Origin: Campylobacteraceae bacterium
Lineage (GTDB): Bacteria > Campylobacterota > Campylobacteria > Campylobacterales > Arcobacteraceae
Length of the DNA: 40,246 nt
Reading direction: 5' to 3'
NCBI GenBank assembly: GCA_013215915.1
Contig: JABSON010000004.1
Span: 1-40,246, forward strand
In this document: positions 2,295 to 34,780 of the stretch, one piece after another
How the letters are laid out: each line of letters starts with the position of its first letter
Position numbering within the stretch: position 1 is the first letter of the stretch
The notes under the pieces: model-generated
Databases searched by the model: none
Told to the model about the DNA's origin: nothing
What the model saw: the letters and a program-made list of their open reading frames with translations, nothing else
Made by a program: the position numbers and the translations under genes

Positions 2295-3743
2295 ATGACA
2301 TATAATTACGAAGAAAGTTTATATATTAATGGTTCATGGGAAAAAGGTGTTTCAACTATTGAAAACATTAATCCATCTGATATCTCAGATAATATTGGTA
2401 ATATTGCACAAGCTAGTAGTGAACAAGTACATAAAGCAATTCAAGCTGCAAAAATAGCTCAACCTATTTGGGAAAAAACTCCTTTAGAAACAAAATTAAA
2501 TATTTTACAAAAAATTGGTGATGAACTAATTGAAAGATGTGAAGAATTAGGTGAACTACTAGGAAGAGAAGAAGGAAAATCTAAAGCAGAAGGTAAGGGA
2601 GAAATTTATAGATCTGGACAATTTTTTCAATATTATGCTGCTGAAGTTCTAAGACAAATGGGTGAAAATGCCTTATCAGTTAGACCTGGTATTGATATTG
2701 ATGTAACTAGAGAAGCTGTTGGAGTTATTGGTATAATCTCACCTTGGAATTTTCCAACTGCAACTGCTGCTTGGAAAATAGCACCTGCTTTAGCTTTTGG
2801 AAATGCAATTATTTGGAAACCAGCTAATTTAACTCCTGCTTCTGCTGTTGCTTTAACTGAAATTATTTCAAGACATGGTTTACCAGATGGTACATTTAAT
2901 CTTGTTTTAGGATCAGGTTCAATTGTTGGAAATGAACTTATTAATTCAAAAGAAATTGATGCAATTTCTTTTACAGGATCTGTTGAAACTGGAAGAAAAA
3001 TTGCTATTGCTACTGCTGCTAATTTTGTTAAGTGCCAGTTAGAAATGGGAAGTAAAAATGCTTTAGTTATTGCTGATGATGCAGATATCTCTACAGCTGT
3101 AGAATCTACAATTGCTGGTTCATTTTCAGGAACAGGGCAAAAGTGTACGGCATCTTCAAGATTAATTGTTACAGAATCTATTCATGATGAATTTGTAGCT
3201 GCTCTTGTAAAAAGAATGGGAGATTTAAAAGTTGGACATTATTTAGAAGATGGTATTTTTATGGGACCAGTTTCTTATAAAGTACAATTTGATTCAAACT
3301 TCAAATGGATCGAGCGAACTAAAGAACTTGGTGGAAAACTAGCTTTTGGTGGTGAAAAACTATCTATGAAAACTGAAGGTTATTTTATGAGTCCAACACT
3401 ATTTGTTGATACAAAAAATGATTGGGATGTAAATCAAGAAGAAGTATTTGCTCCAATGGCTTGTGTGATTAAAGTAAAAGATTTAGAAGAAGCTATTAAA
3501 ACTTGTAATGATACTAGATTTGGTTTAACTGCTGGAATTATTACTCAAAGTTTAAAAACTGCTGCAATCTTTAAAAAATCTGCACAAAGTGGTTGTGTAA
3601 TGGTAAATTTACCAACTGCAGGAACTGATTACCATGTTCCATTTGGAGGAAGAAAAGAATCAAGTTTTGGACCACGTGAGCAAGGTTCTTATGCTAAAGA
3701 ATTTTACACTATTGTAAAAACAACATATCAAAAACCTTATTAG
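2295..3743 (+). CDS. NAD(P)-dependent aldehyde dehydrogenase, 2-oxoglutarate-semialdehyde DH type
   Basis: This 482-residue aldehyde dehydrogenase has the full catalytic set: the oxyanion-region motif ISPWNFP, the nucleotide-binding motif FTGSVETG, the general base Glu250 in LEMGS, and the nucleophile Cys284 in GQKCTA. The Glu and Cys are the usual 34 residues apart. The C-terminal tail, with TAGTDYHVPFGGRKESS and GPREQG then EFYT, is what I associate with 2-oxoglutarate-semialdehyde (2,5-dioxovalerate) dehydrogenases of hydroxyproline and sugar-acid catabolism. The true substrate may be another acidic semialdehyde. It sits inside the operon between ridA and the M19-like gene. A semialdehyde released by imine hydrolysis and oxidised here could enter the TCA cycle as a dicarboxylate. 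The precise substrate is inference. Confidence 0.85.
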   Translation: MTYNYEESLYINGSWEKGVSTIENINPSDISDNIGNIAQASSEQVHKAIQAAKIAQPIWEKTPLETKLNILQKIGDELIERCEELGELLGREEGKSKAEGKGEIYRSGQFFQYYAAEVLRQMGENALSVRPGIDIDVTREAVGVIGIISPWNFPTATAAWKIAPALAFGNAIIWKPANLTPASAVALTEIISRHGLPDGTFNLVLGSGSIVGNELINSKEIDAISFTGSVETGRKIAIATAANFVKCQLEMGSKNALVIADDADISTAVESTIAGSFSGTGQKCTASSRLIVTESIHDEFVAALVKRMGDLKVGHYLEDGIFMGPVSYKVQFDSNFKWIERTKELGGKLAFGGEKLSMKTEGYFMSPTLFVDTKNDWDVNQEEVFAPMACVIKVKDLEEAIKTCNDTRFGLTAGIITQSLKTAAIFKKSAQSGCVMVNLPTAGTDYHVPFGGRKESSFGPREQGSYAKEFYTIVKTTYQKPY

Positions 3744-3751
3744 GAATTATT

Positions 3752-4741
3752 ATGTATAAAGATCAAATAATTATCGATGGTTTGCAATATTGTTATTGGG
3801 ACCGTTCTTATTTTGAAAGTTTGCAAAGAAGTGGAATTACTGCTGTTCATGTAACTCTTGTGTATCATGAAATGGCTAGAGAAACTTTAAGTAGATTTGC
3901 ACAATGGAATAAATATTTTGAGTTATATTCTGATTTAATTATGCCTATCATGAATATGACTGATGTAAAAATTGCTAAAGAAAAGAAATTAGTTGGAATC
4001 TTTTTTGGTGCCCAAAATTGTAGTCCTATAGATGATGAAATTGGTTTAATTGAAGTAATGAGAAAACAAGGTTTACTTATCATGCAATTAACTTATAATA
4101 ACCAAAGTTTATTGGCTACTGGTTGTTATGAAAAACATGATAATGGAATTACTAGGTTTGGAAAACAAGCTATAGAAGAAATGAATAGAGTTGGTATGAT
4201 TATAGATATGAGTCATAGTTCTGAAATATCAACTTTAGAAGCAATTGATTTATCTTCAAGACCTATTTGTATTTCACATGCAAATCCAAATTTTGCGCAT
4301 AAGGCATTAAGAAATAAATCAAATGAAGTTATAAAAGCCTTATGTAAAAGAGGTGGACTATTAGGATTCTCTTTATATCCTTTTCATTTACCAAATTCAA
4401 GTAAGTGTACGTTAGAAGATTTTACACAAATGATTGCAGATACTGCAGATATGGTTGGAGTTGAACATTTAGCACTTGGAAGTGATTTATGTTTAAATCA
4501 GCCAACAGAAGTTTTAGAATGGATGCGAAATGGTAAATGGTCAAAAGCTATGGATTATGGTGAAGGAAGTGCATCAAATTCAGGATGGCCTGATGATTTA
4601 CCTTGGTTTAAAGATGAAAAAGGAATGGAAAATATTTATAATGGCCTTTTAAAACAAGGTTTTAAAGAAAAAGAAGCTAATCAAATTCTTGGCGGGAACT
4701 GGTTTAACTTCTTAGAGAGCGGTTTAAAAGCTCAAAATTAA
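3752..4741 (+). CDS. M19 (renal dipeptidase) family protein with altered metal site
   Basis: The 329-residue protein has the M19 TIM-barrel pattern and would normally be annotated 'membrane dipeptidase'. The C-terminal ligands are kept: His155 (DMSHSSE), His176 (ISHAN, exactly 21 residues later) and Asp245 (GSDL). The N-terminal HxD metal pair is replaced by LQY in IDGLQYCYWD (residues 11-13), and the bridging Glu falls at Gln88 in FFGAQNC. It therefore cannot build the usual two-zinc centre, and dipeptidase activity is doubtful. A one-metal hydrolase, decarboxylase or ring-opening role is possible. There is no signal peptide, so it is cytoplasmic. It lies 8 bases after the aldehyde dehydrogenase and 55 before the BCCT transporter. 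From memory, relatives with the DGLQ motif occur near betaine-catabolic genes in other proteobacteria, but I could not check this. Confidence 0.78.
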   Translation: MYKDQIIIDGLQYCYWDRSYFESLQRSGITAVHVTLVYHEMARETLSRFAQWNKYFELYSDLIMPIMNMTDVKIAKEKKLVGIFFGAQNCSPIDDEIGLIEVMRKQGLLIMQLTYNNQSLLATGCYEKHDNGITRFGKQAIEEMNRVGMIIDMSHSSEISTLEAIDLSSRPICISHANPNFAHKALRNKSNEVIKALCKRGGLLGFSLYPFHLPNSSKCTLEDFTQMIADTADMVGVEHLALGSDLCLNQPTEVLEWMRNGKWSKAMDYGEGSASNSGWPDDLPWFKDEKGMENIYNGLLKQGFKEKEANQILGGNWFNFLESGLKAQN

Positions 4742-4796: not shown

Positions 4797-6347
4797 ATGG
4801 AAACTTTGAATAAAGATAATATTAATATAGAAGAAATAGAGAAAAAAGAAAAAATTGATAAAACAGCACTATTTTTAAGTTCGGGATTTTTAGTAGCTTT
4901 TGTTGCATTAGCTTTAATTGATTCAAAACTTTTAACAAGTATAGTAAATACAGGTTTTGGATGGTCTGCAAAAGTTTTTGGAGCTTATTGGCAATTTTTA
5001 TTATTTGCTACATTTATTGTAGGAATTGGACTTGCTTTAGGAAGAACAGGATCTGTAGTTTTAGGTAATTTAAAGTCTCCTGAAATGAGTACATTTCAAT
5101 GGATGGCTATTATTTTATGTACATTATTAGCAGGTGGTGGAGTGTTTTGGGCAGCAGGTGAACCAATTGCTCACTTTGTATCTCCCCCTCCATTTTATGG
5201 TCCTGAAGCTGATGTTTTCCAAAAAGCAGTTAATGCTTTATCTCAGAGCTTTATGCATTGGGGATTTTTAGCTTGGGCAATTTTAGGTACATTAACTACT
5301 ATTGTATTAATGCACTTGCATTATGATAAAGGTTTACCTTTAAAACCTAGAACACTTTTATATCCAGTATTTGGAGATAGAGCTATTCATGGACCCTTAG
5401 GTTCTATTGTTGATGCTGCATGTATTGTTGCAGTTGCAGCTGGAACGATTGGACCAATTGGATTTTTAGGTTTACAAATTTCTTATGCATTAAATGCTTT
5501 ATTTGATATTCCAGATGGTTTTACAACTCAATTAATTATTATTATAATTGCTATTGTAATTTATACTGTATCTGCTTTAACAGGAGTTACAAAAGGTATA
5601 CAAATTTTAAGTAGATGGAATGTAATTTTAGCTGTTTTTTTAATGGCATATATTTTTATATTTGGACCAACTGCTTTTATTATTGATGCTTATATTCAAG
5701 GTGTAGGTTCTGTATTACAAAACTTTATTCCTATGGCTACATTTAGAGGTGATACTTCTTGGTTAAGCTGGTGGACAGTATTCTTTTGGGGTTGGTTTTT
5801 AGGATATGGACCAATGATGGCAATATTTATTGCTAGAATATCAAGAGGAAGAACAATTAGAATGTTAATTTTAGCTGTTAGTATTTTTGCTCCATTAATA
5901 ACAATGTTTTGGTTTACAATTGTAGGAGGAGCTGGTTTATCATTTGAAATTGCTCAACCTGGTTTAATATCAGAAGCATTTAAAGGTTTTAATTTACCAG
6001 CAGCATTATTAGCAATTACACAATCTTTGCCTTTTCCAATAATTACATCAATATTATTTTTAATTTTGACAACAGTGTTTATTGTAACAACAGGTGATTC
6101 AATGACATATACAATGAGTGTTGTTGTAAGTGGTAATACTGAACCACATCCATACTTAAGAGTATTCTGGGGAGTATTAATGGGAGTATTAGCAATTGTT
6201 TTAATTTCAATTGGTGCAGGTGGGATATCTGCTTTACAATCATTTATTGTAATAACAGCAGTACCCGTATCTTTAATACTTTTACCAGCATTATGGAATG
6301 CACCACAAATTGCAATTAAAATGGCAGATGAACAAGGTTTAAAATAA
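4797..6347 (+). CDS. BCCT family transporter (divergent subgroup)
   Basis: This is a 516-residue secondary transporter of the betaine/carnitine/choline family with about 12 membrane helices, and it imports zwitterions or quaternary-ammonium compounds. The family signature is clear: a Trp-rich helix (WTVFFWGWFLGYGP, about residue 320) followed by FIARISRGRTIR. The first conserved glycine helix reads GGGVFWAAGEP instead of the common GxGxxFxGVAEP, and PMMA replaces PFVG before FIARIS. It therefore belongs to a divergent branch, and the substrate should not be assumed to be glycine betaine. The short charged N-terminal tail and lack of a long C-terminal osmosensor argue for nutrient uptake over osmoprotection. 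AAGGA precedes the ATG. It is the only transporter in the operon, so it probably brings in the substrate. Confidence 0.88.
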   Translation: METLNKDNINIEEIEKKEKIDKTALFLSSGFLVAFVALALIDSKLLTSIVNTGFGWSAKVFGAYWQFLLFATFIVGIGLALGRTGSVVLGNLKSPEMSTFQWMAIILCTLLAGGGVFWAAGEPIAHFVSPPPFYGPEADVFQKAVNALSQSFMHWGFLAWAILGTLTTIVLMHLHYDKGLPLKPRTLLYPVFGDRAIHGPLGSIVDAACIVAVAAGTIGPIGFLGLQISYALNALFDIPDGFTTQLIIIIIAIVIYTVSALTGVTKGIQILSRWNVILAVFLMAYIFIFGPTAFIIDAYIQGVGSVLQNFIPMATFRGDTSWLSWWTVFFWGWFLGYGPMMAIFIARISRGRTIRMLILAVSIFAPLITMFWFTIVGGAGLSFEIAQPGLISEAFKGFNLPAALLAITQSLPFPIITSILFLILTTVFIVTTGDSMTYTMSVVVSGNTEPHPYLRVFWGVLMGVLAIVLISIGAGGISALQSFIVITAVPVSLILLPALWNAPQIAIKMADEQGLK

Positions 6348-6404: not shown

Positions 6405-8819
6405 ATGAAATTAATAAATAATTTACCACTTAGAGAATCAAATGATGTTATGAATTTAAAAAGAATGGGTGCTATGCATCAATCTAGAATATCCTTTACA
6501 AGGACTTTAGTTAGAAAAATGGCTAATGAACATTGGACTGTAAAAAAAAGCTTGTGGGATTTATGTGAAAATGGTTATGGTACTGTTATTTATGAGTTAA
6601 AAACTCCAAATAGTATTTATAATTTAGTAGTTTTTTCTAATTATATTGAAGATCATGAAAGAAATGATAGGGTAATTGCAGAAAAGTGGGATGTTACTTT
6701 TACTTTGATTGATGGTGAAGTAAGCTCAAAACTTTTAAAAATGTTAAAAGATAATGTTCCTTTACAAGAAGCAGGAAGAAATACAAATAGAGCAATGGTA
6801 TTAGCTCGTGCTAATAAAAGTGTAAGAGTATTTAATCATATTGTAGAATCTTTATCCTGTGGTAAACAACCTGATTCTCTTGAATTATCTAAAGTTGGTT
6901 ATATTTTAAGAACAACAGCTGTATATGGTAGTGGTAAATTTGGTATTACAGATTTTGATAATTTAAAAGATAAAGTAGATTTCTCTCAATCTTTTTCTGC
7001 AGAAATGTGTGCTGTTTATATACTTAGACAATTTTCTCTTGATTTAGTTAATTATTTAGCTAAAAACAAAGGAAAAAATAAAGCCGTTACTTTAGATAAA
7101 AATATTCAAAGATATTTAGGAATAGGGAATGCAACTGGGCTTGGAATGGCACCTTATTTAATTAAACATCCCAAAGTTGTTGATAATTGGTTATATCAAA
7201 GAGAATCAGCACTTAGCAAAGTATCATTAGAAAAAATTACAAAAGAAAAAATAAGAGAAATCAAAAAATATTTATATAGAGCAAAACAGCATCTTAATGA
7301 AGTTGTTACTATTAATGAAAATCAAAAAAAATTAAATATAATTGCAGCAAATGAAATTGATTTAATTATTGAAATAATTGAAAATTCTTTAGCTTCAAAC
7401 AATATTTGGGCTAAAATAATTAAAGATATTAAACAATTTTCTTATGAATCTCAAGAATGTACTATTTCATCTTTAATTGAGTTATTTCCATCACTTGTAG
7501 ATGAACATTCTACAAAAATGACAATTGATGAACAAGCTTTAGAGTTAACAGATATTTCTTTATATGATTTAAAGATAATATTAAGAGAAAAATATTCTTG
7601 GGCCATTAATATTGATTTCACAAAAGATGATAACAATTACTGGTTTTGGTATGTATCACAAGATAAAGAAGAACCAAGGTTAGGAATTAGAAATGTTGAT
7701 AATGGTAGTGAGTTAGAACAACCATTAGATATTGCAAGACAAGCAAATAAACTTTATAATAAAATTAAAGATATGAATAATGAAGATACTATTAGTAAGT
7801 TTTTATTATTAAATCCTGAATTTACATCTATTACTAGAAGAGTTTGGACTATGGGTCATTGTGTAATGGGTGAAATTCAAGCTAATGTATTAGCAAAAGA
7901 TTTTTTACCAATGGATTTATTAAGAGCTAAACTAGCTATGTTTGGCGCTACTAAATTTGATCCAAGATCAGATAGATGGGTACAAGTTACTTTTTACCAA
8001 AGTGCACCATTATTAGATGAAATTCATGCGAATGAATGGTTATTCCCTTTATTAGAAAAAAACAAAGATGATAAACTTGATTTTAATGATAATAAAATTT
8101 GTGTTTCACAAACTGAATTAAAAACTTTATGTGCAAAAGCATTTAATGGATTAAAATTAAAAGCAGGGGAAGCGGATGTAATTGCTAAAATGGTTGTTGA
8201 ACTTGAACTTGTTGGATTAAGAGGAGTTGATCATTTTATTGAAGCCTTAGATCATTTAAAAGATGATAATACTTTAAATGTAAATATTACATCAAGTGAA
8301 AATAAGATATCAGTAGATTTAGGATCTTGTAGTGTATTATGTCATTTACAAATTGTGTTAGCTTATTCAATTGAGCATATGAAAAATAATGATTATGTAC
8401 TTCTTGAAATTAAAAATTGTTATAACAAATGGTTAAGTTATACTCAGCTAAAAAGATTATCAAGTAAAGAATTAAATGCTAAATTTTACTGGACAAGTTC
8501 AAGCGATAATAAAAGTATTGAATATTCTATTCATAAAAATGAAGAATTTCCAAATGTAAAAATTTCAAATAAACCTTTATTTGAAAAAAATACTTTAATT
8601 ATAGAAATTTCAAAAAATAAAATATCTAATAATTATTTTGATTTAGATTATGAAAACATTAAAGCTATTAGCTTAAAAGACTCTTATAATAATTCTTTGG
8701 ATTCAGGTATTTTACTTGAAAAAGATTCTTGGAATAAAATAAAAGAAGTTGCAAAAGGTATATTAGTTGAGTCAAGTGAGAAATCAAAAAATGATGCTGG
8801 TGGAGTAGTTACACTATAA
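6405..8819 (+). CDS. Large protein of unknown function, cytoplasmic, operon member
   Basis: I do not recognise the 804-residue product as any characterised enzyme. It has no signal peptide, no membrane segment and no P-loop. Visible blocks are an N-terminal segment with MGAMHQSRISFTRTLVRKM then EHWTVKK, a middle with GIGNATGLGMAPYLIKHP (about residues 240-260), and a Trp/His/Cys-rich stretch RRVWTMGHCVMGEIQ (about 485-500) followed by KFDPRSDRWVQV. The region around 565-615 (VSQTELKTLCAKAFNGLKLK and GEADVIAKMV) loosely resembles the DUF3726 domain or the N-terminus of Ldh2-type dehydrogenases. That is a weak impression only. The last 100 residues look divergent. Its stop is 17 bases from the start of the FdhF-like gene, so it may be a partner or maturation factor of that oxidoreductase, or an enzyme itself. 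Confidence 0.75.
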   Translation: MKLINNLPLRESNDVMNLKRMGAMHQSRISFTRTLVRKMANEHWTVKKSLWDLCENGYGTVIYELKTPNSIYNLVVFSNYIEDHERNDRVIAEKWDVTFTLIDGEVSSKLLKMLKDNVPLQEAGRNTNRAMVLARANKSVRVFNHIVESLSCGKQPDSLELSKVGYILRTTAVYGSGKFGITDFDNLKDKVDFSQSFSAEMCAVYILRQFSLDLVNYLAKNKGKNKAVTLDKNIQRYLGIGNATGLGMAPYLIKHPKVVDNWLYQRESALSKVSLEKITKEKIREIKKYLYRAKQHLNEVVTINENQKKLNIIAANEIDLIIEIIENSLASNNIWAKIIKDIKQFSYESQECTISSLIELFPSLVDEHSTKMTIDEQALELTDISLYDLKIILREKYSWAINIDFTKDDNNYWFWYVSQDKEEPRLGIRNVDNGSELEQPLDIARQANKLYNKIKDMNNEDTISKFLLLNPEFTSITRRVWTMGHCVMGEIQANVLAKDFLPMDLLRAKLAMFGATKFDPRSDRWVQVTFYQSAPLLDEIHANEWLFPLLEKNKDDKLDFNDNKICVSQTELKTLCAKAFNGLKLKAGEADVIAKMVVELELVGLRGVDHFIEALDHLKDDNTLNVNITSSENKISVDLGSCSVLCHLQIVLAYSIEHMKNNDYVLLEIKNCYNKWLSYTQLKRLSSKELNAKFYWTSSSDNKSIEYSIHKNEEFPNVKISNKPLFEKNTLIIEISKNKISNNYFDLDYENIKAISLKDSYNNSLDSGILLEKDSWNKIKEVAKGILVESSEKSKNDAGGVVTL

Positions 8820-8836: not shown

Positions 8837-11074
8837 ATGATTATTGATATAAAAACAATAAAAACAGCAGGTGGATGGGGTGCTTTAAAATCATCTGGTC
8901 ATTTTATTATAAAAGAAGGCTTTTTTAAAACCTTTAAAACTCTCTTATCTGCAAATCAAGTAGATGGTTTTGATTGCCCAGGTTGCGCTTGGCCAGATCC
9001 AAAAGAAAAAGATAGATCAATGAATGAATACTGTGAAAATGGTGTAAAAGCAATATCTTTTGAGACTACAGATAAAAGAGTATCAAAAGAGTTGTTTGAT
9101 AGATATACAGTAAAAGAATTAAATGAATTTGATGTTCATAAGATAACTAATCAGGGACGATTAAGTGAACCTTTTTATTATAATAAAATCACTGATAAGT
9201 ATGAAAGTATATCATGGGAAAAATCTTTCTCAATTATAGGAAGACATTTAAAAAATTTAAATAAAGCAGATGATGCAATATTTTATACATCAGGAAGAAC
9301 ATCTAATGAAGCTGCATTTTTATATCAGTTAATGGGAAGAATGATAGGTACTAATAATTTTCCAGATTGTTCAAATATGTGTCATGAAAGTTCTGGTGTT
9401 GGAATGAATGCCTCAATTGGTATTGGAAAAGGTACCGTTGATTTAGAAGATTTTGATAAAGCAGAGTTAATTATGATTTTTGGTCAAAACCCAGGTACTA
9501 ATCATCCTAGAATGTTAAGCGAATTAAAAAAAGCTAATGAAAGAGGTGCTAAAGTTATTAGCATTAATCCTTTAAAAGAAGCAGGTTTAGTATCATTTAT
9601 TCATCCTCAAGACATAGAACAAATGATTACAAACAAAGCTCAATCTATAAGTACTCATTATTACCCAATAAAAATGGGTTCTGATATGGCACTTATTCAA
9701 GCTATTATAAAATATATTTTAGAAAATTTTGAAAATGATATTGATAAAGACTTTATAAATGAACATACTTCAGGTTTTGAAGAATACAAAAATGAAATAT
9801 TATCAAAAGATTGGGATACATTAATTAAACAAAGTTCATTACAAAAAGATGAAATTGTTGAAATAGCCAAATTGTATATGACTTCAAACAAAACTATTTG
9901 TTGTTGGGCTATGGGTTTAACTCAGCATGCTCATGGAGTTGCTACAATTGAAGAAGTAATGAATTTACTTTTACTTAAAGGCAATATAGGTAAAGAAGGA
10001 GCAGGTGCCTGTCCTGTAAGAGGACATAGTAATGTTCAAGGAGATAGAACAGTAGGAATTGCAGAGGCTCCAAAAGAAGATTTTTTAAAGAAAATTGATA
10101 AAGTTTTTAATTTTACATCTCCAAGATCTCATGGTTATGATGTTGTTCATGCAATTCAAGCGATGCATGAAGAAAAAAACAAAGTATTTATAGGACTTGG
10201 TGGAAATTTTGCAGCAGCAGCGCCAGATACAAAATATACTTATGAAGCTTTAAGAGCCTGTAATTTAACAGTTCATATTTCTACTCATCTAAATAAAAGT
10301 CATTTAATCTGTGGTAAAGAAGCTTTAATTCTTCCTTGTTTAGGAAGAACAGAATTAGATATACAACAAAGAGGAGTGCAAGAAGTTACAGTTGAAGATT
10401 CAATGTCAATGGTACATTCTTCAAAAGGAAAAAATATTCCAGCAACTAGAGATTTAAAATCTGAACCAGCAATAATTGCAGGAATTGCAGATGCTACTTT
10501 AGGTAATAATAAAGTAGATTTTATAGATTTAATTTCTGATTATTCAAAAATTAGAGAAAAAATAGAAGAAGTATTACCTACTTTTAAAAATTATAATGAA
10601 AATATAAAAAAACCAGGCGGTTTTGAATTATATAATGGTCCTAAAAATAGAGTATGGTTAACGCCTAATAAAAAAGCTAATTTTTTAATTAATCAGGCAC
10701 CTGATTTGGAACTAAAAGAAAATCATTTAATTCTAATGACAATGAGATCTCATGATCAGTTTAATACTACTGTGTATGAAAAAGATGATAGATATAGAGG
10801 AATAAAAGATCAAAGAGAAATAATATTTCTAAATCCAAAAGATATAAAGAAGTTAAATTTTAAGAATGGAGATTTAGTTAATATTACTTCTCATTATTCT
10901 GATGAGGTAAATAGAGAAGTTAAAAACTTTAAAATTATTTCTTATGATATTAAAGAAGGTTGTGCCGGTGCATATTTTCCAGAAGCAACACCTTTAGTAT
11001 CTTTAAATCATCATGATTCAAAGAGTTTTACACCTTCTTATAAATTTATCGATATTACATTAACTAAAGTATAA
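8837..11074 (+). CDS. FdhF/YdeP family molybdopterin-dependent oxidoreductase
   Basis: A 745-residue cytoplasmic member of the bis-MGD (DMSO reductase) superfamily, of the YdeP-like branch often misnamed formate dehydrogenase alpha subunit. The N-terminus has DCPGC (Cys47, Cys50) and Cys66 in EYCENG: three cysteines, not the four that usually hold a 4Fe-4S cluster. The expected molybdenum ligand is Cys182, followed by His183, in NMCHESSG, aligned with the Sec/Cys-His of formate dehydrogenases. Family motifs GHSNVQGDRT and RSHDQFNTTVYEKDDRYRG are intact. There is no Tat signal and no electron-transfer subunit nearby, so the redox partner is unknown. As the last gene of the operon it probably oxidises, reduces or hydroxylates the imported compound or an intermediate. 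Formate oxidation is unlikely to be its main role. Confidence 0.85.
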   Translation: MIIDIKTIKTAGGWGALKSSGHFIIKEGFFKTFKTLLSANQVDGFDCPGCAWPDPKEKDRSMNEYCENGVKAISFETTDKRVSKELFDRYTVKELNEFDVHKITNQGRLSEPFYYNKITDKYESISWEKSFSIIGRHLKNLNKADDAIFYTSGRTSNEAAFLYQLMGRMIGTNNFPDCSNMCHESSGVGMNASIGIGKGTVDLEDFDKAELIMIFGQNPGTNHPRMLSELKKANERGAKVISINPLKEAGLVSFIHPQDIEQMITNKAQSISTHYYPIKMGSDMALIQAIIKYILENFENDIDKDFINEHTSGFEEYKNEILSKDWDTLIKQSSLQKDEIVEIAKLYMTSNKTICCWAMGLTQHAHGVATIEEVMNLLLLKGNIGKEGAGACPVRGHSNVQGDRTVGIAEAPKEDFLKKIDKVFNFTSPRSHGYDVVHAIQAMHEEKNKVFIGLGGNFAAAAPDTKYTYEALRACNLTVHISTHLNKSHLICGKEALILPCLGRTELDIQQRGVQEVTVEDSMSMVHSSKGKNIPATRDLKSEPAIIAGIADATLGNNKVDFIDLISDYSKIREKIEEVLPTFKNYNENIKKPGGFELYNGPKNRVWLTPNKKANFLINQAPDLELKENHLILMTMRSHDQFNTTVYEKDDRYRGIKDQREIIFLNPKDIKKLNFKNGDLVNITSHYSDEVNREVKNFKIISYDIKEGCAGAYFPEATPLVSLNHHDSKSFTPSYKFIDITLTKV

Positions 11075-14106: not shown

Positions 14107-15444
14107 ATGAATAAAACAATCTTAAAACTAAAATATATTGTATTTTTTACAATAGTTTTATTATTCGCAGCTTGTTCTAGTGAAAATGAAGGAAAGAATT
14201 CAGTTGGAAATAATTTTGTTGAAGCAAAAGTTTTAAATGAAGTATCAGCATCTACAAATTTAGCATATATACAAGCTTCTTTTAAAGCAAATGCGACTAA
14301 TGCATTCTCATATAAATCAATTAAGATCAAGTATAAAACAAAAAATCAAGAAGGAAATGAGGTGTTAGCTTCAGGTATTCTTATTTTACCAACACCAACT
14401 CAAGCATATCTTGATTTTTTAAAATCAAATGGAAAAACTTTCTCTATTTCAACCATTGTTGAAAACCACGGTACAATATTTACAAATGCAGAAGCTCCTA
14501 GTAATGAAATAACTACTGTTGGTTCATCAATTCAAGGAACTGCTTTATTAATGAGTGGATTTGCAGGATTCGCTGTTGTTATGCCTGATTATTTAGGTTA
14601 TGGAGACTCTAATGATTCATACCATCCTTATATCCTTAAAAAAACATCAGCTAAAGTTTCTATTGATATGCTAAGAGCAAGTGTTGCATATATGACAAAT
14701 AATAATATAATATTTAATGGTCAAGTATATATATCAGGTTATTCTGAAGGTGGTTATGTTGCCATGTCAATGGCAAAAGAATTAGAAGAAAATTATTCTT
14801 CATCATTTAATGTAAAAGCACTTGCAGCTATGGCTGGTCCTTATGATGTAAAAGCATTAGCAGATAAAGAAATTGATGAAACTAGAACAATGGAGTATCC
14901 AGCATTTTTAGCTTACCTTTCACATTCTTATACAAAAGCATATTCTAACTTAAGTTTAAAAGATTCTATTGTTTATCCTAATACTGATATTTTTCATAGT
15001 TTTTTTGATGGAAGTAAATCGGGAACTGTAATTAATCTTTCTTTAGGAATTGGTGATCAAACAAATGGTGGATATAAAGTTGAAAAAGCTGATAAGTTAT
15101 TTAACATAGATTTTATTAATGATTATAAATCTAATGTAAATAACGCCTTTAAAGTTAGATTTTTAGAAAATAATGTTTTTGATTGGACTCCCAGAAGTAA
15201 AGTAAATCTTATTCATTGTAAGGATGATGAAATTGTTCCTTTTTCAATGTCTCAAACTGCATATGATAAGTTTATTTCTAATGGTGCAAGTTCAACTAAT
15301 ATTACATTAAGTGAAATTCCTAGCTCTGTATTAGTACAGCAGATTGATGCTACACATCCTTTTGTACATAGTAATTGTGGTTCAACTGCTTATGGTGCAG
15401 CTGTATCATGGTTCTCAAAAATTAGAAGTGGAGAAATAAAATAA
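14107..15444 (+). CDS. Lipoprotein alpha/beta hydrolase (secretory lipase/esterase-like)
   Basis: The 445-residue exported hydrolase has a lipoprotein signal: a hydrophobic N-terminus and a lipobox LFAAC with Cys22 as the lipidated residue, followed by Ser-Ser, which favours outer-membrane sorting. The nucleophile elbow is GYSEGG (Ser213). A likely acid is Asp373 or Asp374 in CKDDEIVPF, and the likely base is His417 in THPF. The overall pattern, including MPDYLGYGDS before the nucleophile, fits the secretory-lipase or acyl-esterase group of the fold. Its stop codon overlaps by one base the start of the second fadL gene, so the two are translationally coupled. The natural reading is ester hydrolysis at the cell surface followed by uptake of the released lipid. 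The actual ester substrate is unknown. Confidence 0.82.
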   Translation: MNKTILKLKYIVFFTIVLLFAACSSENEGKNSVGNNFVEAKVLNEVSASTNLAYIQASFKANATNAFSYKSIKIKYKTKNQEGNEVLASGILILPTPTQAYLDFLKSNGKTFSISTIVENHGTIFTNAEAPSNEITTVGSSIQGTALLMSGFAGFAVVMPDYLGYGDSNDSYHPYILKKTSAKVSIDMLRASVAYMTNNNIIFNGQVYISGYSEGGYVAMSMAKELEENYSSSFNVKALAAMAGPYDVKALADKEIDETRTMEYPAFLAYLSHSYTKAYSNLSLKDSIVYPNTDIFHSFFDGSKSGTVINLSLGIGDQTNGGYKVEKADKLFNIDFINDYKSNVNNAFKVRFLENNVFDWTPRSKVNLIHCKDDEIVPFSMSQTAYDKFISNGASSTNITLSEIPSSVLVQQIDATHPFVHSNCGSTAYGAAVSWFSKIRSGEIK

Positions 15445-24055: not shown

Positions 24056-25090
24056 TTATTTTGTGCCAGTAATCCATGATGATCCAATTACTTGTTCACC
24101 TCTATAAAATACAGCCAATTGACCAGATGCAACACCAAATGATGGATTATCTAAAGTAATATTAGCAATTCCATTTTTTATTACAACTTTACAAGTAGCT
24201 GTTGGAGATCTATATCTTAGTTTAACTCCACATTCAAAGTCTGTTTCATCTGAATACATATTTAAGTCATTTGCAGTAACTTCATTTACTTCAAGAACTT
24301 CTTTTTTACCAACAACAATAGTATTATTTTTTGGATTTAATTCTTTTACAAAATGTGGCTCGTGAGCACCGTTTACAATAAATCCTCTTCGTTTACCAAT
24401 TGTATAATGCATATAACCTTTATGAGAACCAACAACATTACCCTGGGTATCTAAAACTTTTCCTGGTAAATCAATATTTGCATGTTTTTTAATTACATCA
24501 GTATAAACAGTTTCCACAAAACAAATTTCTTGTGATTCATTTTTTTCAGTAATTTCTCTATAAACAGAAGAAAGAGTTGCGGCAAATTTTATAATATCTT
24601 CTTTTTTATAAGTACTTAAAGGAAACATCATATGTTTTAAAGCTGATTTGTCTACTTGCGATAAAAAGTAACTTTGATCTTTTGATTTATCATCAGCTTC
24701 ATAAAGGAATTCACCATCAGTTTTTGCATAATGTCCAGTTGCTAAAAACTCACATCCCTTATCTTGTGCAAATTTAAGCATTGCACCAAATTTAATCTGT
24801 TTATTACATTTAACACATGGGTTTGGAGTAGTACCTTCTAAGTATGATTCTACAAAATAATCATAAATCTCAGCAGTAAATTTATCTGCTAAATCTAATA
24901 CATGATATTTAATATTTAAAAACTTAGCTACATCTTCTATAAAACCTAAGTTTCTTTCATGGTAACCATCCTTTCTATTATGAAGTTTTAAATAAACACC
25001 TTCAACTTCGTAACCTTCTTTTTGTAACATGTATGCAGTAACTGATGAATCAATTCCTCCACTCATACCTACCATTACTTTTTTTTTCAT
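24056..25090 (-). CDS. mnmA: MnmA-type tRNA-specific 2-thiouridylase, copy 1
   Basis: MnmA thiolates U34 of tRNA-Lys, -Glu and -Gln using a persulfide delivered by sulfur relay. The 344-residue protein has the PP-loop VGMSGGIDSSVTAY (residues 7-20), a CxxC site NPCVKCNKQIKF (Cys92, Cys95) and the second catalytic Cys in ESQEICFVE (about 191). This CxxC form differs from the single Cys of the copy at 25555, and the two proteins are too different to be a recent duplication. Both keep the catalytic residues, so both may be active. It is preceded by a decayed folK remnant that overlaps its likely promoter. GGATAAAT stands before the ATG. Confidence 0.9.
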   Translation of the reverse strand: MKKKVMVGMSGGIDSSVTAYMLQKEGYEVEGVYLKLHNRKDGYHERNLGFIEDVAKFLNIKYHVLDLADKFTAEIYDYFVESYLEGTTPNPCVKCNKQIKFGAMLKFAQDKGCEFLATGHYAKTDGEFLYEADDKSKDQSYFLSQVDKSALKHMMFPLSTYKKEDIIKFAATLSSVYREITEKNESQEICFVETVYTDVIKKHANIDLPGKVLDTQGNVVGSHKGYMHYTIGKRRGFIVNGAHEPHFVKELNPKNNTIVVGKKEVLEVNEVTANDLNMYSDETDFECGVKLRYRSPTATCKVVIKNGIANITLDNPSFGVASGQLAVFYRGEQVIGSSWITGTK

Positions 25091-25100
25091 TATTTATCCT

Positions 25101-25365
25101 TTTTAAGGGAATAGTAACTGCTTCTCTATTTTGCCAAAACTTATGGGGAATAATTAGTTTTTTAGTATTCACTTTTTTAGAAGCGAAAAATATTATATCT
25201 ATATCCAGGGTTCTAGGCGCATCTTGAAAGGACCGCTTTATTCCATATCTTATTTTAAGCCTCTGTAATTATTTAAAAAAATCATTACGACCTAAATTAG
25301 TTTTAAGTGCGATTATAGCATTAAAAAAAGTATTTTACTCAAGAAAATAAAGTGTGGATTGACAA
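25101..25365 (-). pseudogene. folK: folK remnant (3' part only), frameshifted
   Basis: On the minus strand this stretch matches the 3' part of the intact folK at 26713-27189 almost base for base. By my count there are about a dozen mismatches in the first 160 bases from the 25101 end, which aligns with 26722. It still reads KRSFQDAPRTLDIDIIFFAS and IIPHKFWQNREAVTIPLK. An in-frame TAA replaces the Asn codon before MQSL. An extra T in a run of seven (about 25322-25328) shifts the frame. Similarity fades at about 25350-25370. The 5' half, with the GGNVGD pterin-binding region, is absent, so it cannot make a working HPPK. It separates the two mnmA genes. Confidence 0.88.
25312..25317 (-). promoter_or_regulatory. 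Extended -10 promoter inside the folK remnant
   Basis: On the minus strand CTTTTTTTAATGCTATAATCGC matches the prs promoter core (TGCTATAATCGC) base for base and points towards mnmA copy 1, about 220 bases away. The intact folK reads GGTATAATCACG at the same place, with a shorter T-run. Function is inferred from the match only. Confidence 0.45.
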
Positions 25366-25554
25366 GGAGGGAAGGGGAAAATTATAAGTAAATCAAATAG
25401 TATTAATTTTTTTAACACTATTAATACTATTTTAGAAATTGTAGTTTGTTTATTTATTATAAAATCTTATTAGGAATATTCTAGTGTTTTTTTACTTAAT
25501 ATCATTGGAGATAGTAAACTATCTCCAATGTTTTTTAGAATTTATATCGTATTT
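25366..25554. other. Gene-free segment between folK remnant and mnmA copy 2, two hairpins
   Basis: The 464-base gap between the two mnmA genes holds the folK remnant and this 190-base segment, in which I see no coding sequence. It contains two perfect inverted repeats. The first is AAATAGTATTAAT (25395-25407) with its complement (25420-25432). The second is CATTGGAGATAG (25503-25514) with its complement (25519-25530), followed on the plus strand by six T. The second has the form of a terminator for plus-strand transcription, although no plus-strand gene is known here. A short untranslated RNA, for example from near a TATTATAAAAT at about 25455, is possible. Confidence 0.4.
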
Positions 25555-26658
25555 TTAATTAAAATAATTACTTATAAATCCACCACCTAAACAAAACTCA
25601 CCATCATATAAAACAAGACTTTGTCCAGAAGTAACAGCTCTTTGCGGCTTATCAAATTTAACTATAACTTTGTCATCATTAATTTCTATAACTGTACAAG
25701 CTTGTTTTTGTTGACGATAACGAACTTGTGCCATTAGTTTATCACCAATTTTAGCTGGTTCATCTAATACCCAGTGCATATGACTAGCTTCAACATTTTG
25801 GTTCATAAGTAAAGGATGATTAGTATCTTGCACAATTGTTAATGTATTATTTTCTAAGTCTTTTTTGGCTGCATACCATGGGTTATGTATGTGGTTAGCA
25901 GATTCTGTCTCTTTCATTCCACCAATACCAATACCTTTTCTCTGACCTAGTGTGTAACAAATAAGACCTTTATGTTTACCTATTACTTTTCCGCCTTCAT
26001 CAATAATATCTCCAGGAATTGCTTTTAAATGTTGAGTAATAAATTCATCAAATTTTTGTTTACCAATAAAACATATACCAGTACTGTCTTTTTTATCACT
26101 TACAGGTAGGTTATGTGCTTTGGCTATTTCTCTAACTTCTTTTTTTGTAAGATCTGCTAAAGGAAACATAGCTTGTGATAGTTGTTTACTTGATAAAGCG
26201 TGTAAAAAGTAAGTTTGATCTTTTGTATCATCTTTAGGAGTTGATAATACATGACGATCATTATGCATTTCTATTTTTGCATAATGTCCAGTTGCAATCA
26301 TATCAGCACCCATTTTTTTTGCTTCATTTAAAAATACAGTAAATTTAATCTCACGATTACAAAGAATATCTGGATTAGGAGTAAGACCTTTTTTTAAACC
26401 TTCTAAAAATACATCAAATACTTTAGTTCTGTATTCTTCTACAAAATCTATACCTTTTACTTCAATTCCTAATAACTTACCTACTTTAATAGCATCTTCA
26501 AATTCTATACGATTAGGACATTGACTACCTTTAATACCGTAGTCCCAATTTCGCATGAATAAGCCTGTTACTTCATATCCTTGCTGTTTTAACAGTAAGG
26601 CAGTAACAGAAGAATCAACACCACCAGACATACCTACAACAACTTTTTTTTTGTTCAT
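25555..26658 (-). CDS. mnmA: MnmA tRNA-specific 2-thiouridylase, copy 2
   Basis: At 367 residues this copy is close to the classical proteobacterial MnmA: PP-loop VVGMSGGVDSSVTALLL, LFMRNWDYG, the catalytic Cys100 in NPDILCNREIKF, and the second catalytic Cys in STGICFIGK (about 198). GHYAKIE and KDQTYFLHALSS are also family blocks. The gene starts 54 bases after the intact folK stop. It and the folK next to it look like one unit that entered upstream of the older mnmA copy, leaving the folK remnant between them. Which copy carries the essential tRNA modification cannot be told from sequence. Confidence 0.93.
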   Translation of the reverse strand: MNKKKVVVGMSGGVDSSVTALLLKQQGYEVTGLFMRNWDYGIKGSQCPNRIEFEDAIKVGKLLGIEVKGIDFVEEYRTKVFDVFLEGLKKGLTPNPDILCNREIKFTVFLNEAKKMGADMIATGHYAKIEMHNDRHVLSTPKDDTKDQTYFLHALSSKQLSQAMFPLADLTKKEVREIAKAHNLPVSDKKDSTGICFIGKQKFDEFITQHLKAIPGDIIDEGGKVIGKHKGLICYTLGQRKGIGIGGMKETESANHIHNPWYAAKKDLENNTLTIVQDTNHPLLMNQNVEASHMHWVLDEPAKIGDKLMAQVRYRQQKQACTVIEINDDKVIVKFDKPQRAVTSGQSLVLYDGEFCLGGGFISNYFN

Positions 26659-31098: not shown

Positions 31099-32295
31099 TT
31101 ATAAAGCAGATACTATTTTATAAGTATCATTAGCAATTACATATTCTTCATTTGTAGGAATTACAAATATTCTTGCAGCAGAAGAGTTTGTTGCAATATC
31201 TTTAGCAACGCTAGATCTTTTGTTGTTTTTAGTAGGATCTATAATTAAACCCATTCCATCTAATCCTGCACATACAATTTCTCTAATAAGTGCTGAGTTT
31301 TCACCAATACCACCTGTGAAACATAAAGCATCAATACCATCAAGAGCTGCCACATAAGCTCCAACATATTTTTTGATATTATAAGCTACCATTTCAACAG
31401 CTAATCTACACTTATCATCACCATTTTTCATACCTTCAAGAACTTCTCTTAAATCTGATGATTTTCCCGAAATTCCTAAAATACCTGATTTTTTATTCAT
31501 AATGTCTAAAGTCTCATCAATACTAAGACCTTCTTGTGTCATCATATATGAAATAGCTCCTGCTCCAACATCACCAGCACGTGTTCCCATCATAAGACCT
31601 TGAACTGGAGTTAAACCCATAGATGTATCAATACATTTGCCATTTAATACAGCAGATACAGATGAACCGTTTCCTAAATGACATACAATAATTCTAGTAT
31701 TGTGTTTTTTATCTAACATACCTTGAGCTTCATTTGAAACAAAAAAGTGGCTAGTTCCATGGAAACCATATTTTCTAATACCATGTTTTGAATATTGTTC
31801 ATATGGTAATGGATACATATATGCATAATCAGGCATTGTTTGATGGAATGCTGTATCAAACACAGCGACATTTGGAATACCTGGCATTAGATCTTGACAA
31901 ATTTCCATTCCCATAATATTGGCAGGATTGTGTAAAGGTGCTAAAGGAATAAGTTTTCTCATTTCTTCAATAACAATTGGTGTTACAATAGTTGATACTG
32001 AAAATTTCTCACCACCATGAACTGCTCTATGTCCAATAGCTTCAATTTTATTAATTGAAGCTATTACTGCACCTTCACCTTCGGTTAAAGTTTTAAGTAC
32101 TAATTCAATAGCTTCTTTATGAGTTGGCATAGAAATTTCTTTTTTGATTTTTCCATCTTCTTTAAATTGATGTGTTAAAACACCATCAATACCAATTCTT
32201 TCACAAATTCCAACAGCTAAAACCTCTTTATTAATCGGGTTCATTAACTGATACTTTAACGACGAACTTCCTGCATTTAAAATGAAAACTAACAT
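31099..32295 (-). CDS. ackA: Acetate kinase, copy A
   Basis: AckA interconverts acetate + ATP with acetyl phosphate + ADP. From the preferred start the protein has 398 residues, the usual length. I choose the ATG at 32295 because GGA is only 6 bases before it and it gives the same MLVFILNAGSSSLKYQLM as copy B. An ATG 6 bases further upstream (32301) abuts the Shine-Dalgarno site. The ASKHA motifs are present: NAGSSS with Asn8-equivalent, the catalytic Arg in IGHRAVHGG, KYGFHGTSH, VCHLGNGSS and FTGGIGENS. It is downstream of pta on the minus strand. With pta it makes or uses acetyl-CoA from the acetate imported by ActP. Confidence 0.94.
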   Translation of the reverse strand: MLVFILNAGSSSLKYQLMNPINKEVLAVGICERIGIDGVLTHQFKEDGKIKKEISMPTHKEAIELVLKTLTEGEGAVIASINKIEAIGHRAVHGGEKFSVSTIVTPIVIEEMRKLIPLAPLHNPANIMGMEICQDLMPGIPNVAVFDTAFHQTMPDYAYMYPLPYEQYSKHGIRKYGFHGTSHFFVSNEAQGMLDKKHNTRIIVCHLGNGSSVSAVLNGKCIDTSMGLTPVQGLMMGTRAGDVGAGAISYMMTQEGLSIDETLDIMNKKSGILGISGKSSDLREVLEGMKNGDDKCRLAVEMVAYNIKKYVGAYVAALDGIDALCFTGGIGENSALIREIVCAGLDGMGLIIDPTKNNKRSSVAKDIATNSSAARIFVIPTNEEYVIANDTYKIVSAL

Positions 32296-32372
32296 AAACA
32301 TTCCTTTTATATTATTTGAAATTTAATCTTTAGTAAATAGCCAAGATACTAAAAACAACAGTCTTTAAATCC

Positions 32373-33368
32373 TTATTCTACTTGAGATGCAGTAATTGCA
32401 ACTAAATTTGAAATATCTTCTACTGAACAACCTCTTGATAAATCATTTACTGGTTTATTTAAACCTTGAATAATTGGTCCATGAGCTGCAGCATGTGCAA
32501 ATCTTTGAACTAATTTATATCCAATATTTCCAGCTTGTAAATCAGGAAAAATTAATATATTTGCTTGTCCTGCTACTTTTGAATCAGGAGCTTTCTTTTT
32601 AGCAATTGCAGCAACAATTGCAGCATCAGCTTGCATTTCACCATCAAAAGCAAAATCAACATTTCTCTCTTTTAAAATTTCAACAGCTTTTGTAACTTTA
32701 TCAACCATTGGATGTTTTGCGCTTCCCATAGTAGAGAATGATAACATTGCAACTTTTGGTTCAATTCCAACAACATTTTTAGCAGTAGCAGCAGTAGAAG
32801 CTGCAATATCAGCTAACTGTTCGCTTGTAGGATCTGGTAATACAGCACAATCACCAAATAATAATAAACCGTTATCACCAAATTCTTTATCTTGTGTTTC
32901 CATAATAAAAGAAGAAGATACAGTTTTAATTCCAGGAGCTGTTTTAATAACTTGAATAGCTGCTCTTAAAACAGATGCAGTAGGAGAATTTGAACCAGCA
33001 ACAACACCATGGGCATGTCCTAATCTAACCATCATACAAGCAAAAAATCTTGACTCAGTAGACATTATTTCTTTAGCGTCATCATAAGATAAACCTTTTT
33101 TTGCTCTTAATGCAACAAGTTCATTAGTATATTCTTCTAAAGAATCAGATGTTAATGGATCAATAATTACAGCACCTTCAATATTTGCACCAGCAGTTTT
33201 TGCATCAGCTAAAACTTTTTCTATGTTACCAATTAAAACAATTTTCGCAGTTTTTTCTTCTAGTACAATTTGCGCTGCTAATAATACTCTTTCATCTTCT
33301 GACTCTGGAAGTACGATTGTTCTTAATTCTTTTTTTGCATTTTCTTTGATTTTGTCTATTAAACTCAT
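32373..33368 (-). CDS. pta: Phosphate acetyltransferase (short form)
   Basis: Pta interconverts acetyl phosphate and acetyl-CoA. The 331-residue protein is the short form: only the PTA_PTB catalytic domain, without the N-terminal P-loop and DRTGG domains of the enterobacterial enzyme. Motifs are LPESEDERVL at the N-terminus, VAGSNSPTASVLRAAIQVIK, SFSTMGSAKHP and GEMQADAA, followed by ANILIFPDLQAGNIGYK. It sits between two ackA genes, 77 bases before copy A and 224 after copy B, so it can pair with either kinase. The missing regulatory domain suggests less allosteric control. Confidence 0.96.
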   Translation of the reverse strand: MSLIDKIKENAKKELRTIVLPESEDERVLLAAQIVLEEKTAKIVLIGNIEKVLADAKTAGANIEGAVIIDPLTSDSLEEYTNELVALRAKKGLSYDDAKEIMSTESRFFACMMVRLGHAHGVVAGSNSPTASVLRAAIQVIKTAPGIKTVSSSFIMETQDKEFGDNGLLLFGDCAVLPDPTSEQLADIAASTAATAKNVVGIEPKVAMLSFSTMGSAKHPMVDKVTKAVEILKERNVDFAFDGEMQADAAIVAAIAKKKAPDSKVAGQANILIFPDLQAGNIGYKLVQRFAHAAAHGPIIQGLNKPVNDLSRGCSVEDISNLVAITASQVE

Positions 33369-33561
33369 ATTTTATTTCCTTTTGTATTTGTATTGAAATT
33401 AATTAATCAAACTTAAAATATAAACTTCTATATATAATTTTAGTAAATAATAGAAGAAATGTATATAATAATAGAGATTTAAATAATAAATAATGTAAGT
33501 GTGAAGAATAGTAATAGAATATTGACCTTTTTAAGGTGATAATTTTACTATTTTTATGCTT

Positions 33562-33580
33562 ATGTACAAGAATTGTACAT
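33562..33580. promoter_or_regulatory. Operator-like inverted repeat upstream of pta
   Basis: ATGTACAA-GAA-TTGTACAT is a perfect 8-bp inverted repeat with a 3-base spacer, 13 bases from the ackA-copy-B stop and about 195 bases before the pta start. The GTAC-containing arms and spacing suit a dimeric regulator. A second short repeat, AACAAAGGT / ACCTTTGTT, follows at 33582-33605 and runs into the ackA copy B end. Confidence 0.45.
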
Positions 33581-33592
33581 TAACAAAGGTGA

Positions 33593-34780
33593 TTAAACCT
33601 TTGTTAATTTATATGTATCTCTTGCAATAACAAGTTCTTCATTTGTAGGAATAATGAAGATTTTAGTTTTAGAGTTATCAGTATTGATTTCTCTGTTTTC
33701 GCTATTTCTAACTTTATTTTTTTCTTTATCTAAAGAAATACCCATAAAGTCTAAACCTGAACATACTTTTTCTCTAATTAAATCAGCATTTTCACCAATT
33801 CCCGCTGTGAAACAAATTGCATCAACTCCACCTAAGATACCTGCATAAGAACAAATATATTTTTTAATTCTGTTACATTTCATATCAATTGCTAATAATG
33901 CTTTTTCATCACCATTAGTAGAAGCTTCAATAATTTCTCTTAAATCAGAAGAAATTCCAGAAATACCTAATAAACCAGATGATTTATTTAAGTAGTTAAC
34001 TAACTGCTCAGCAGACATTTCTTTTTTCTCCATAAGGTAAGCTAAAACAGCAGGATCTAAATCACCAGATCTTGTACCCATAACTAAACCTTCTAAAGGA
34101 CTTAATCCCATAGATGTATCAACTGATTTACCATCTTGAACAGCACAAATAGATGAACCATTTCCTAAGTGACAAACAATTACTTTTGAATTCTCTTTAT
34201 TTAACATTTTTGATGCTTGATCAGAAACATAATAATGAGAAGTTCCATGGAAACCATATTTTCTTACACCATGATTTTTATAATCATCATATGGTAATGC
34301 ATACATGAAAGCAGCTGGTTCCATAGTTTGGTGGAAAGCTGTATCAAATACTGCTACATTTGGTTTAGTAGGCATTAATTCTTTACAAATATTAATTCCA
34401 ATAATGTGAGCTGGATTATGTAAAGGAGCTAAAGGAATTAAAGATTCTAATTTAGAAATTACATCATTATCGATAATTACAGATTCAGAAAAGAATTCTC
34501 CACCATGAACAACTCTGTGTCCAATTGAATCAATTTCTTCAATTGAATCAATAACTTTACCTTCGCCTTGAGTTAATGACTCAAGCACAATTGAAATTGC
34601 TTCTTTATGTGTTGGCATTGCAAGATCTTTTTTAATTTTAAGATCATTAGCTTCGTGAATTAATCTTCCATCAATTCCAATTCTCTCACATAGACCTGAT
34701 GCCAAAACTTCTTGTGATTCTGGGTTCATTAATTGGTACTTTAATGAAGACGAACCAGCATTTAAAATAAATACTAACAT
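33593..34780 (-). CDS. ackA: Acetate kinase, copy B
   Basis: The second kinase (395 residues) is a clear paralog of copy A with the same N-terminus (MLVFILNAGSSSLKYQLM) and the same motifs: IGHRVVHGGE, KYGFHGTSH, VCHLGNGSS, MGTRSGD and FTAGIGENAD. It starts with a good site (AAAGGACATAATAC before the ATG). Divergence is spread along the protein with no lost active-site residue that I can see, so it is likely functional. It may differ in direction of flux, regulation or acyl preference (propionate is an alternative). It lies directly upstream of pta and downstream of the exonuclease gene. Confidence 0.93.
   Translation of the reverse strand: MLVFILNAGSSSLKYQLMNPESQEVLASGLCERIGIDGRLIHEANDLKIKKDLAMPTHKEAISIVLESLTQGEGKVIDSIEEIDSIGHRVVHGGEFFSESVIIDNDVISKLESLIPLAPLHNPAHIIGINICKELMPTKPNVAVFDTAFHQTMEPAAFMYALPYDDYKNHGVRKYGFHGTSHYYVSDQASKMLNKENSKVIVCHLGNGSSICAVQDGKSVDTSMGLSPLEGLVMGTRSGDLDPAVLAYLMEKKEMSAEQLVNYLNKSSGLLGISGISSDLREIIEASTNGDEKALLAIDMKCNRIKKYICSYAGILGGVDAICFTAGIGENADLIREKVCSGLDFMGISLDKEKNKVRNSENREINTDNSKTKIFIIPTNEELVIARDTYKLTKV

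Follow-up and report, generated by a model that had tools for sequence, protein, structure and literature searches.

An M19-fold protein without the canonical α-metal ligands in a probable homarine-type catabolic operon of Arcobacteraceae

An altered metal site in an M19 protein

Relatives of the M19-fold protein studied here carry the annotation 'membrane dipeptidase', and the protein itself matches the Pfam M19 profile (PF01244) with 228 bits (E = 1.8e-67; cut-off, 26). Its metal-site residues raise the question of whether it can work as a dipeptidase at all, and of what it might do instead. The original prediction, made from the DNA alone, held that the HxD motif and the bridging Glu of the family are missing, that the usual two-zinc centre cannot form and that the protein likely acts, with one metal or none, on a pathway intermediate. 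We followed up these claims in the window (the whole analysed stretch of 40,246 nt) and in related loci of other bacteria. The gene and the codons discussed below are:

3752–4741, + strand: M19-fold protein of the DGLQ branch, 329 amino acids, ATG to TAA
3782–3790, + strand: L11-Q12-Y13 at the HxD position, by alignment with canonical M19 proteins
3869–3871, + strand: Glu codon 40, invariant in the DGLQ and 2i5g-type branches
4013–4015, + strand: Gln codon 88 at the bridging-Glu position, by alignment
4214–4216, + strand: His codon 155, a retained β-site ligand, by alignment and invariance
4277–4279, + strand: His codon 176, a retained β-site ligand, by alignment and invariance
4310–4312, + strand: Arg codon 187 at the DPEP1 R230 position, invariant and aligned
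4484–4486, + strand: Asp codon 245 at the retained general-base position, by alignment and invariance

M19 dipeptidases have an HxD motif with α-metal ligands at the end of strand β1, a bridging Glu after β3, and a β-site His pair with a catalytic Asp. The window protein has L11-Q12-Y13 at the first of these positions and Q88 at the second, and retains the third set as H155, H176 and D245. Canonical M19 proteins of other genomes (loci L099 and L096), when aligned with it, confirm both substitutions: DGLQY aligns with DGHND of L099 (the HxD segment of L096 is DTHID), AQN aligns with IEG (L099) or MEN (L096), and both His residues and the Asp remain in register. The canonical ligands are thus absent at positions 11, 13 and 88, and this pattern supports the view that the canonical α-metal site cannot form. 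With HxD and the bridging Glu absent, the label 'membrane dipeptidase' is doubtful, as had been anticipated. No second M19 copy able to do the normal job was found in the genome of the window.

The original prediction also described the spacing of the retained residues as that of the family. The distances themselves stand in the window protein (21 residues from H155 to H176 and 69 from H176 to D245) and are those of human DPEP1 (H198, H219 and D288), but they do not extend family-wide: the Streptomyces enzyme 3id7 has a His–His spacing of 21 with the Asp much further on, and in the Listeria enzyme 3neh the His–His spacing is one shorter. R187 occupies the position of DPEP1 R230, which binds the substrate carboxylate.

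Predicted fold and solved relatives

An AlphaFold2 model of the window protein, built from 67 sequences, has a mean pLDDT of 93.3. It is predicted to adopt the M19 TIM-barrel fold, for which the profile match is also significant. Structure comparison with VIA-align gives Z = 48.3 against 2i5g (rmsd 1.5 Å over 320 residues, 31% identity), 35.6–38.9 against other M19 enzymes and 16.5 against Escherichia coli NagA (1ymy). Human DPEP1 (1itq), 3id7 and 3neh resemble the window protein in fold (Z = 35.6–38.0), in the β-site His pair and Asp, and in the position of the carboxylate-binding Arg, but carry HxD and the bridging Glu for two zincs where the window protein has LQY and Gln.

Of the solved structures the closest is 2i5g, an 'amidohydrolase' of Pseudomonas aeruginosa in which DGLII and GFQN replace DGHxD and G-x-E-G, and which keeps both His residues, the Arg and the Asp, like the window protein. 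An M19 branch without the α site has therefore been in the PDB since 2006. We take 2i5g to be PA5396-type, from the glycine-betaine catabolism region; the literature searched contained no paper on 2i5g, PA5396, DUF3726 or DUF5943. The genomic context of the 2i5g type differs from that of the window gene: a paralogue at locus L102 (1474–2451) has a GbcA-like gene on one side and a DUF5943 gene on the other, a glycine-betaine catabolism setting.

The window protein belongs with these α-site-less proteins, in that HxD and the bridging Glu are absent ([AFLY]QN instead) and both His residues, the Arg and the Asp are retained. With β-mononuclear amidohydrolases it shares the replacement of the α ligands and the retention of the β-site His residues. 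The amidohydrolase superfamily includes enzymes with two metals, one α metal, one β metal or none, the β-mononuclear ones being an established class (PMC12017989). In E. coli NagA, QxN replaces HxH and the site is mononuclear (PMC6016474); NagA is an N-deacylase with an amidohydrolase barrel, but of a family other than M19. The NagA-family β site is Glu/His/His (PMC12017989), and where NagA or D-aminoacylase has Glu (or Cys) as third ligand the window protein has Gln88, whose oxygen is a possible metal ligand.

A branch of M19 proteins across bacteria

A scan of bacterial genomes yielded 80 loci with an M19 protein of this type, here called the DGLQ branch, and further loci came from plasmids and relatives. 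The branch occurs in Arcobacteraceae, Vibrionaceae, Psychrobacter, Pseudomonas, Halomonas, Halieaceae, Roseobacters, Rhizobiaceae, SAR116 and SAR11. In none of 94 distinct loci is position 11 a His (it is L, T, M or C, mostly Leu) or position 13 an Asp (it is Tyr apart from one Phe); Q12, Q88, N89, H155, H176, R187 and D245 do not vary. Because it is fixed in 94 distinct loci, the residue pattern is far from chance, and decay or sequencing error behind the odd residues is ruled out. The original prediction treated the window gene as a single odd protein; in this it was mistaken, as ligand loss is a trait of a whole M19 branch and the solved 2i5g has the same substitutions. The comparison it pointed to, alignment with M19 structures and DGLQ homologues, finds the substitutions fixed and the same loss in 2i5g.

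Other residues might serve as replacement ligands. E40, which sits just after strand β2 in the predicted model, is the best candidate for such a ligand or for a substrate contact (a substrate-binding acid). It is invariant in the DGLQ branch, common to the 2i5g-type paralogues, and Lys in the ligand-bearing M19 proteins of L096 and L106. H212, C219 and C247 are likewise invariant in the DGLQ branch, and are absent from 2i5g-type proteins.

Some genomes with a DGLQ M19 also carry a 2i5g-type paralogue (DGLII, GFQN). The tree resolves these two types as distinct groups, both placed to one side of the majority of other M19 proteins, although the outgroup branches are very long. The Arcobacteraceae proteins are nested in a clade with those of Vibrionaceae and Psychrobacter, which suggests horizontal transfer of the M19 gene into Arcobacteraceae.

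A different altered ligand pattern was seen in the M19 proteins of L097 and L098 (HVT, MLN and SQ in L097), so ligand loss in M19 arose more than once. These two proteins are similar to PvdM (3b40), which has the M19 fold (Z = 37.4 against the window protein) and is a pyoverdine-maturation protein, from a siderophore context, and not a proven dipeptidase.

Operon organization

The M19 gene lies in a gene set with gaps of 8 to 131 bp, in the order GntR, RidA, ALDH, M19, BCCT, HypN–DUF3726 fusion and FdhF. Its other members are:

1102–1758, + strand: GntR/FCD regulator of the operon, by profile; also in the other seven Arcobacteraceae clusters
1890–2273, + strand: RidA-family protein (Rid imine/enamine deaminase family), by profile
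2295–3743, + strand: aldehyde dehydrogenase (ALDH), by profile; 8 bp before the M19 gene
4797–6347, + strand: BCCT transporter (betaine/choline/carnitine family), by profile
6405–8819, + strand: fusion of HypN (an orphan of about 550 amino acids) and DUF3726, by profile and neighbour counts
8837–11074, + strand: FdhF/YdeP-family molybdopterin oxidoreductase, by profile; 17 bp after the fusion gene

The nearest curated model of the ALDH is α-ketoglutaric semialdehyde dehydrogenase, below its cut-off, and FdhF is a candidate for formate oxidation. The M19 gene is present in 8 of 104 genomes of the family, all eight sharing the same operon set, including FdhF. An OprD-like porin gene stands between GntR and RidA in at least one Arcobacteraceae cluster (L158), and a comparable gap is seen at this point in three more. 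Among 96 loci, many with short flanks, the neighbours of M19 include HypN (about 80), ALDH (72) and BCCT (55); SAR11 and SAR116 loci have an M19–HypN–DUF3726 trio with no adjacent ALDH. In almost all of the clades studied, this gene neighbourhood agrees with the proposed action on a pathway intermediate.

HypN and DUF3726

HypN, the most constant neighbour of the DGLQ M19 gene, is fused to DUF3726 in the window. Residues 1–550 of the fusion, which correspond to HypN, give a confident model (pLDDT mostly >90) and have no significant Pfam or NCBIfam match; a fold search with the whole 804-residue fusion found no PDB match for HypN at E 0.001, nor did its Shinella homologue have one. Sequence comparison of DUF3726 with the PDB gave nothing significant. 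At the profile level, DUF3726 (fusion residues 567–804) resembles part of Ldh_2 (hhalign probability 93.7, E = 1.8e-7), and its fold matches Ldh_2-type structures with Z up to 8.6, in a part of the model that is of low confidence. DUF3726 thus appears divergent from, but related to, part of the Ldh_2/Δ1-piperideine-2-carboxylate reductase family, and because of this resemblance the HypN/DUF3726 pair is a candidate for a ring-attacking step.

Exchange of RidA for Ldh_2 and Sox-like genes

In relatives of the window cluster, a DpkA-like reductase and/or a 'sarcosine oxidase' stands in for RidA. We counted this exchange in the 71 clusters with enough flank (from L010–L095, L155–L161 and the window): RidA is present in 38, an Ldh_2 or Sox-like/Mgd gene in 21, and both in none. 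On the M19 tree, the exchange amounts to three state changes; we discarded a Fisher p of 6.5e-10 as independent evidence, since the tree requires only these three. One of the Ldh_2 clusters, from Marinomonas (L036), is nested among RidA-bearing relatives. The Ldh_2 protein is closest to Δ1-piperideine-2-carboxylate reductase 1wtj (E = 4.9e-52; next best, 7.8e-35) of the DpkA family, which converts 2-oxo acids and methylamine to N-methyl-L-amino acids.

In Halieaceae and other gammaproteobacteria, the cluster-linked 'sarcosine oxidase' α subunits group with two gmaS-adjacent copies in a single supported clade, distinct from the SoxA copies that these genomes carry at other places (for example, HTCC2148). 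From this grouping, the gammaproteobacterial copies are probably N-methylglutamate dehydrogenase (Mgd). The alphaproteobacterial and SAR11 copies fall outside the gmaS-adjacent clade, which counts against a wider assignment and limits the Mgd identity to gammaproteobacteria. For the gammaproteobacterial clusters only, the gmaS-adjacent grouping also disfavours a simple sarcosine or glycine-betaine pathway.

At the thresholds used, neither a full-length Sox/Mgd-type protein nor an Ldh_2 relative was found in the genome of the window or its relatives, so the window pathway cannot end in N-methylglutamate oxidation by Sox, Mgd or Ldh_2. Mgd and Ldh_2 are absent also from several Vibrionaceae and Psychrobacter genomes tested, and these absences fit a RidA branch of the pathway.

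Ferrer-Gonzalez et al. reportedly described, in 2026, a homarine operon that is conserved in Roseobacters, SAR11 and SAR116 and yields N-methylglutamate and glutamate, and the spread of the present cluster (Roseobacters, SAR11, SAR116) matches those taxa. N-methylglutamate dehydrogenase acts in homarine (N-methylpicolinate) catabolism, according to a passage in PMC13390433 that cites Ferrer-Gonzalez et al. 2026, Nat Microbiol 11:1531. Involvement of Mgd, as given in that passage, would be common to the homarine pathway and the gammaproteobacterial relatives, whereas the window version has RidA and neither Mgd nor Ldh_2. We conclude that the operon probably degrades homarine (N-methylpyridinium-2-carboxylate) or a close relative, and that the pathway is probably of a known type with an unstudied variant ending.

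A proposed route

Our leading explanation, held tentatively and at somewhat less than even chances, is that the window protein is a β-mononuclear amidohydrolase that cuts an amide, N-formyl or similar, in an intermediate of homarine-type ring catabolism. The analysis itself establishes the fixed residue pattern, the operon and the gene exchange, along with a predicted fold; metal number, reaction and substrate are inferences. By analogy with NagA and the amidohydrolase superfamily the β-mononuclear reading is the simplest, with Gln as an unusual third ligand, and we consider one-metal amide hydrolysis likely, with moderate confidence. The protein would be cytosolic and hold one divalent metal in the β site through H155, H176 and perhaps the amide oxygen of Q88; D245 would act as general base, and R187 would hold the substrate carboxylate beside the scissile amide.

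Every chemical step of the route is a proposal. BCCT would take up the homarine-type substrate, and the HypN/DUF3726 pair may be involved in modifying and opening the ring. By analogy with trigonelline degradation, the ring would be cleaved between C5 and C6, so that C6 remains as an N-formyl group and C5 becomes an aldehyde, which ALDH would oxidize. The M19 protein would then hydrolyse the formamide on the N-methylamino acid, and FdhF would oxidize the formate released. In the window organism, RidA may hydrolyse an N-methyl enamine or imine of 2-oxoglutarate to 2-oxoglutarate and methylamine; in other clades, the DpkA-like Ldh_2 would instead reduce the enamine or imine to N-methylglutamate, which Mgd would then demethylate.

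Conversion of homarine to a C5 amino acid requires the removal of ring carbon C6. An N-formyl amino acid would suit the retained Arg, since it is akin to the C-terminal half of a dipeptide, and a substrate that lacks a free amino terminus would be compatible with loss of the α site. Among the observations that count against this explanation, the closest relative of the branch sits in glycine-betaine catabolism clusters, which offer no obvious formyl amide, and some clusters, those of SAR116 among them, lack RidA as well as Ldh/Sox. The fuller proposal, that a one-metal M19 deformylase and RidA together yield formate, methylamine and 2-oxoglutarate without Mgd, and that this second ending of pyridinium-alkaloid catabolism was transferred horizontally to Arcobacteraceae, is possible but doubtful.

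Alternative explanations

The M19 protein could serve the same pathway at another bond, opening a lactam or cyclic amide derived from the pyridinium ring with no formyl removal. Dihydroorotase (3pnu, Z = 16.6) and other cyclic amidases belong to the superfamily, and DUF3726 resembles part of a family with a cyclic-imine 2-carboxylate reductase, but lactam opening by itself leaves unexplained both the dedicated FdhF of all Arcobacteraceae clusters and the loss of one carbon on the way to a C5 product; we regard it as unlikely. The automatic annotation, under which the protein would be an ordinary dipeptidase able to tolerate the substitutions, is hardly credible: despite the strong PF01244 match and the retained R187, H155, H176 and D245, the HxD and Glu are lost, other residues are fixed in their places, and across phyla the gene is tied to an operon for small-solute catabolism.

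Other readings turn on the metal. A second site might be rebuilt from E40, Q88, C247 or H212, giving the usual binuclear amide or peptide hydrolysis. The position of E40 just after β2, its invariance and its presence in 2i5g-type proteins would agree with this, as would the invariance of H212 and C247 in the DGLQ branch, but the two strongest α ligands have become hydrophobic (mostly Leu) at position 11 and Tyr at position 13, and the 2i5g type lacks C247 and H212, so a two-metal enzyme seems quite improbable. It is also improbable that the barrel has been reused for a metal-independent hydrolase or for a non-hydrolytic protein (a hydratase, a tautomerase or a binding partner of HypN), as the two β-site His residues and the Asp are invariant throughout the branch and argue for a kept metal. 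The M19 relative PvdM (3b40), a maturation protein, nevertheless speaks for such a change of function, as do L097 and L098, likely of the PvdM type, in which a different set of ligands is missing, and the near-constant adjacency of the M19 gene to HypN. Metal-independent amidohydrolases do exist (PMC12017989).

Implications and further observations in the window

Many genomes, including those of abundant ocean bacteria, carry a DGLQ M19 protein that is probably mislabelled as a peptidase. If the β-mononuclear reading is correct, the M19 barrel would have been turned from dipeptides to a catabolic amide by the loss of one metal, and such clusters could serve as markers for turnover of homarine, a major marine methylated nitrogen compound. 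The exchange of RidA for Ldh_2/Mgd predicts two different end products, and HypN/DUF3726 emerges as a candidate enzyme for attack on the ring. On the fuller proposal, RidA would be a catabolic pathway enzyme and not a damage-control enzyme.

Elsewhere in the window, the segment 12754–18071 encodes a run of three outer membrane transport proteins of the FadL/TodX type, the first two separated by a secretory lipase-like protein (14107–15444). On the − strand, two adjoining genes at 24056–26658 both match MnmA (tRNA 2-thiouridine synthase) above the curated cut-off, and at 31099–34780 two acetate kinase genes that are 61% identical stand on either side of a phosphate acetyltransferase gene.
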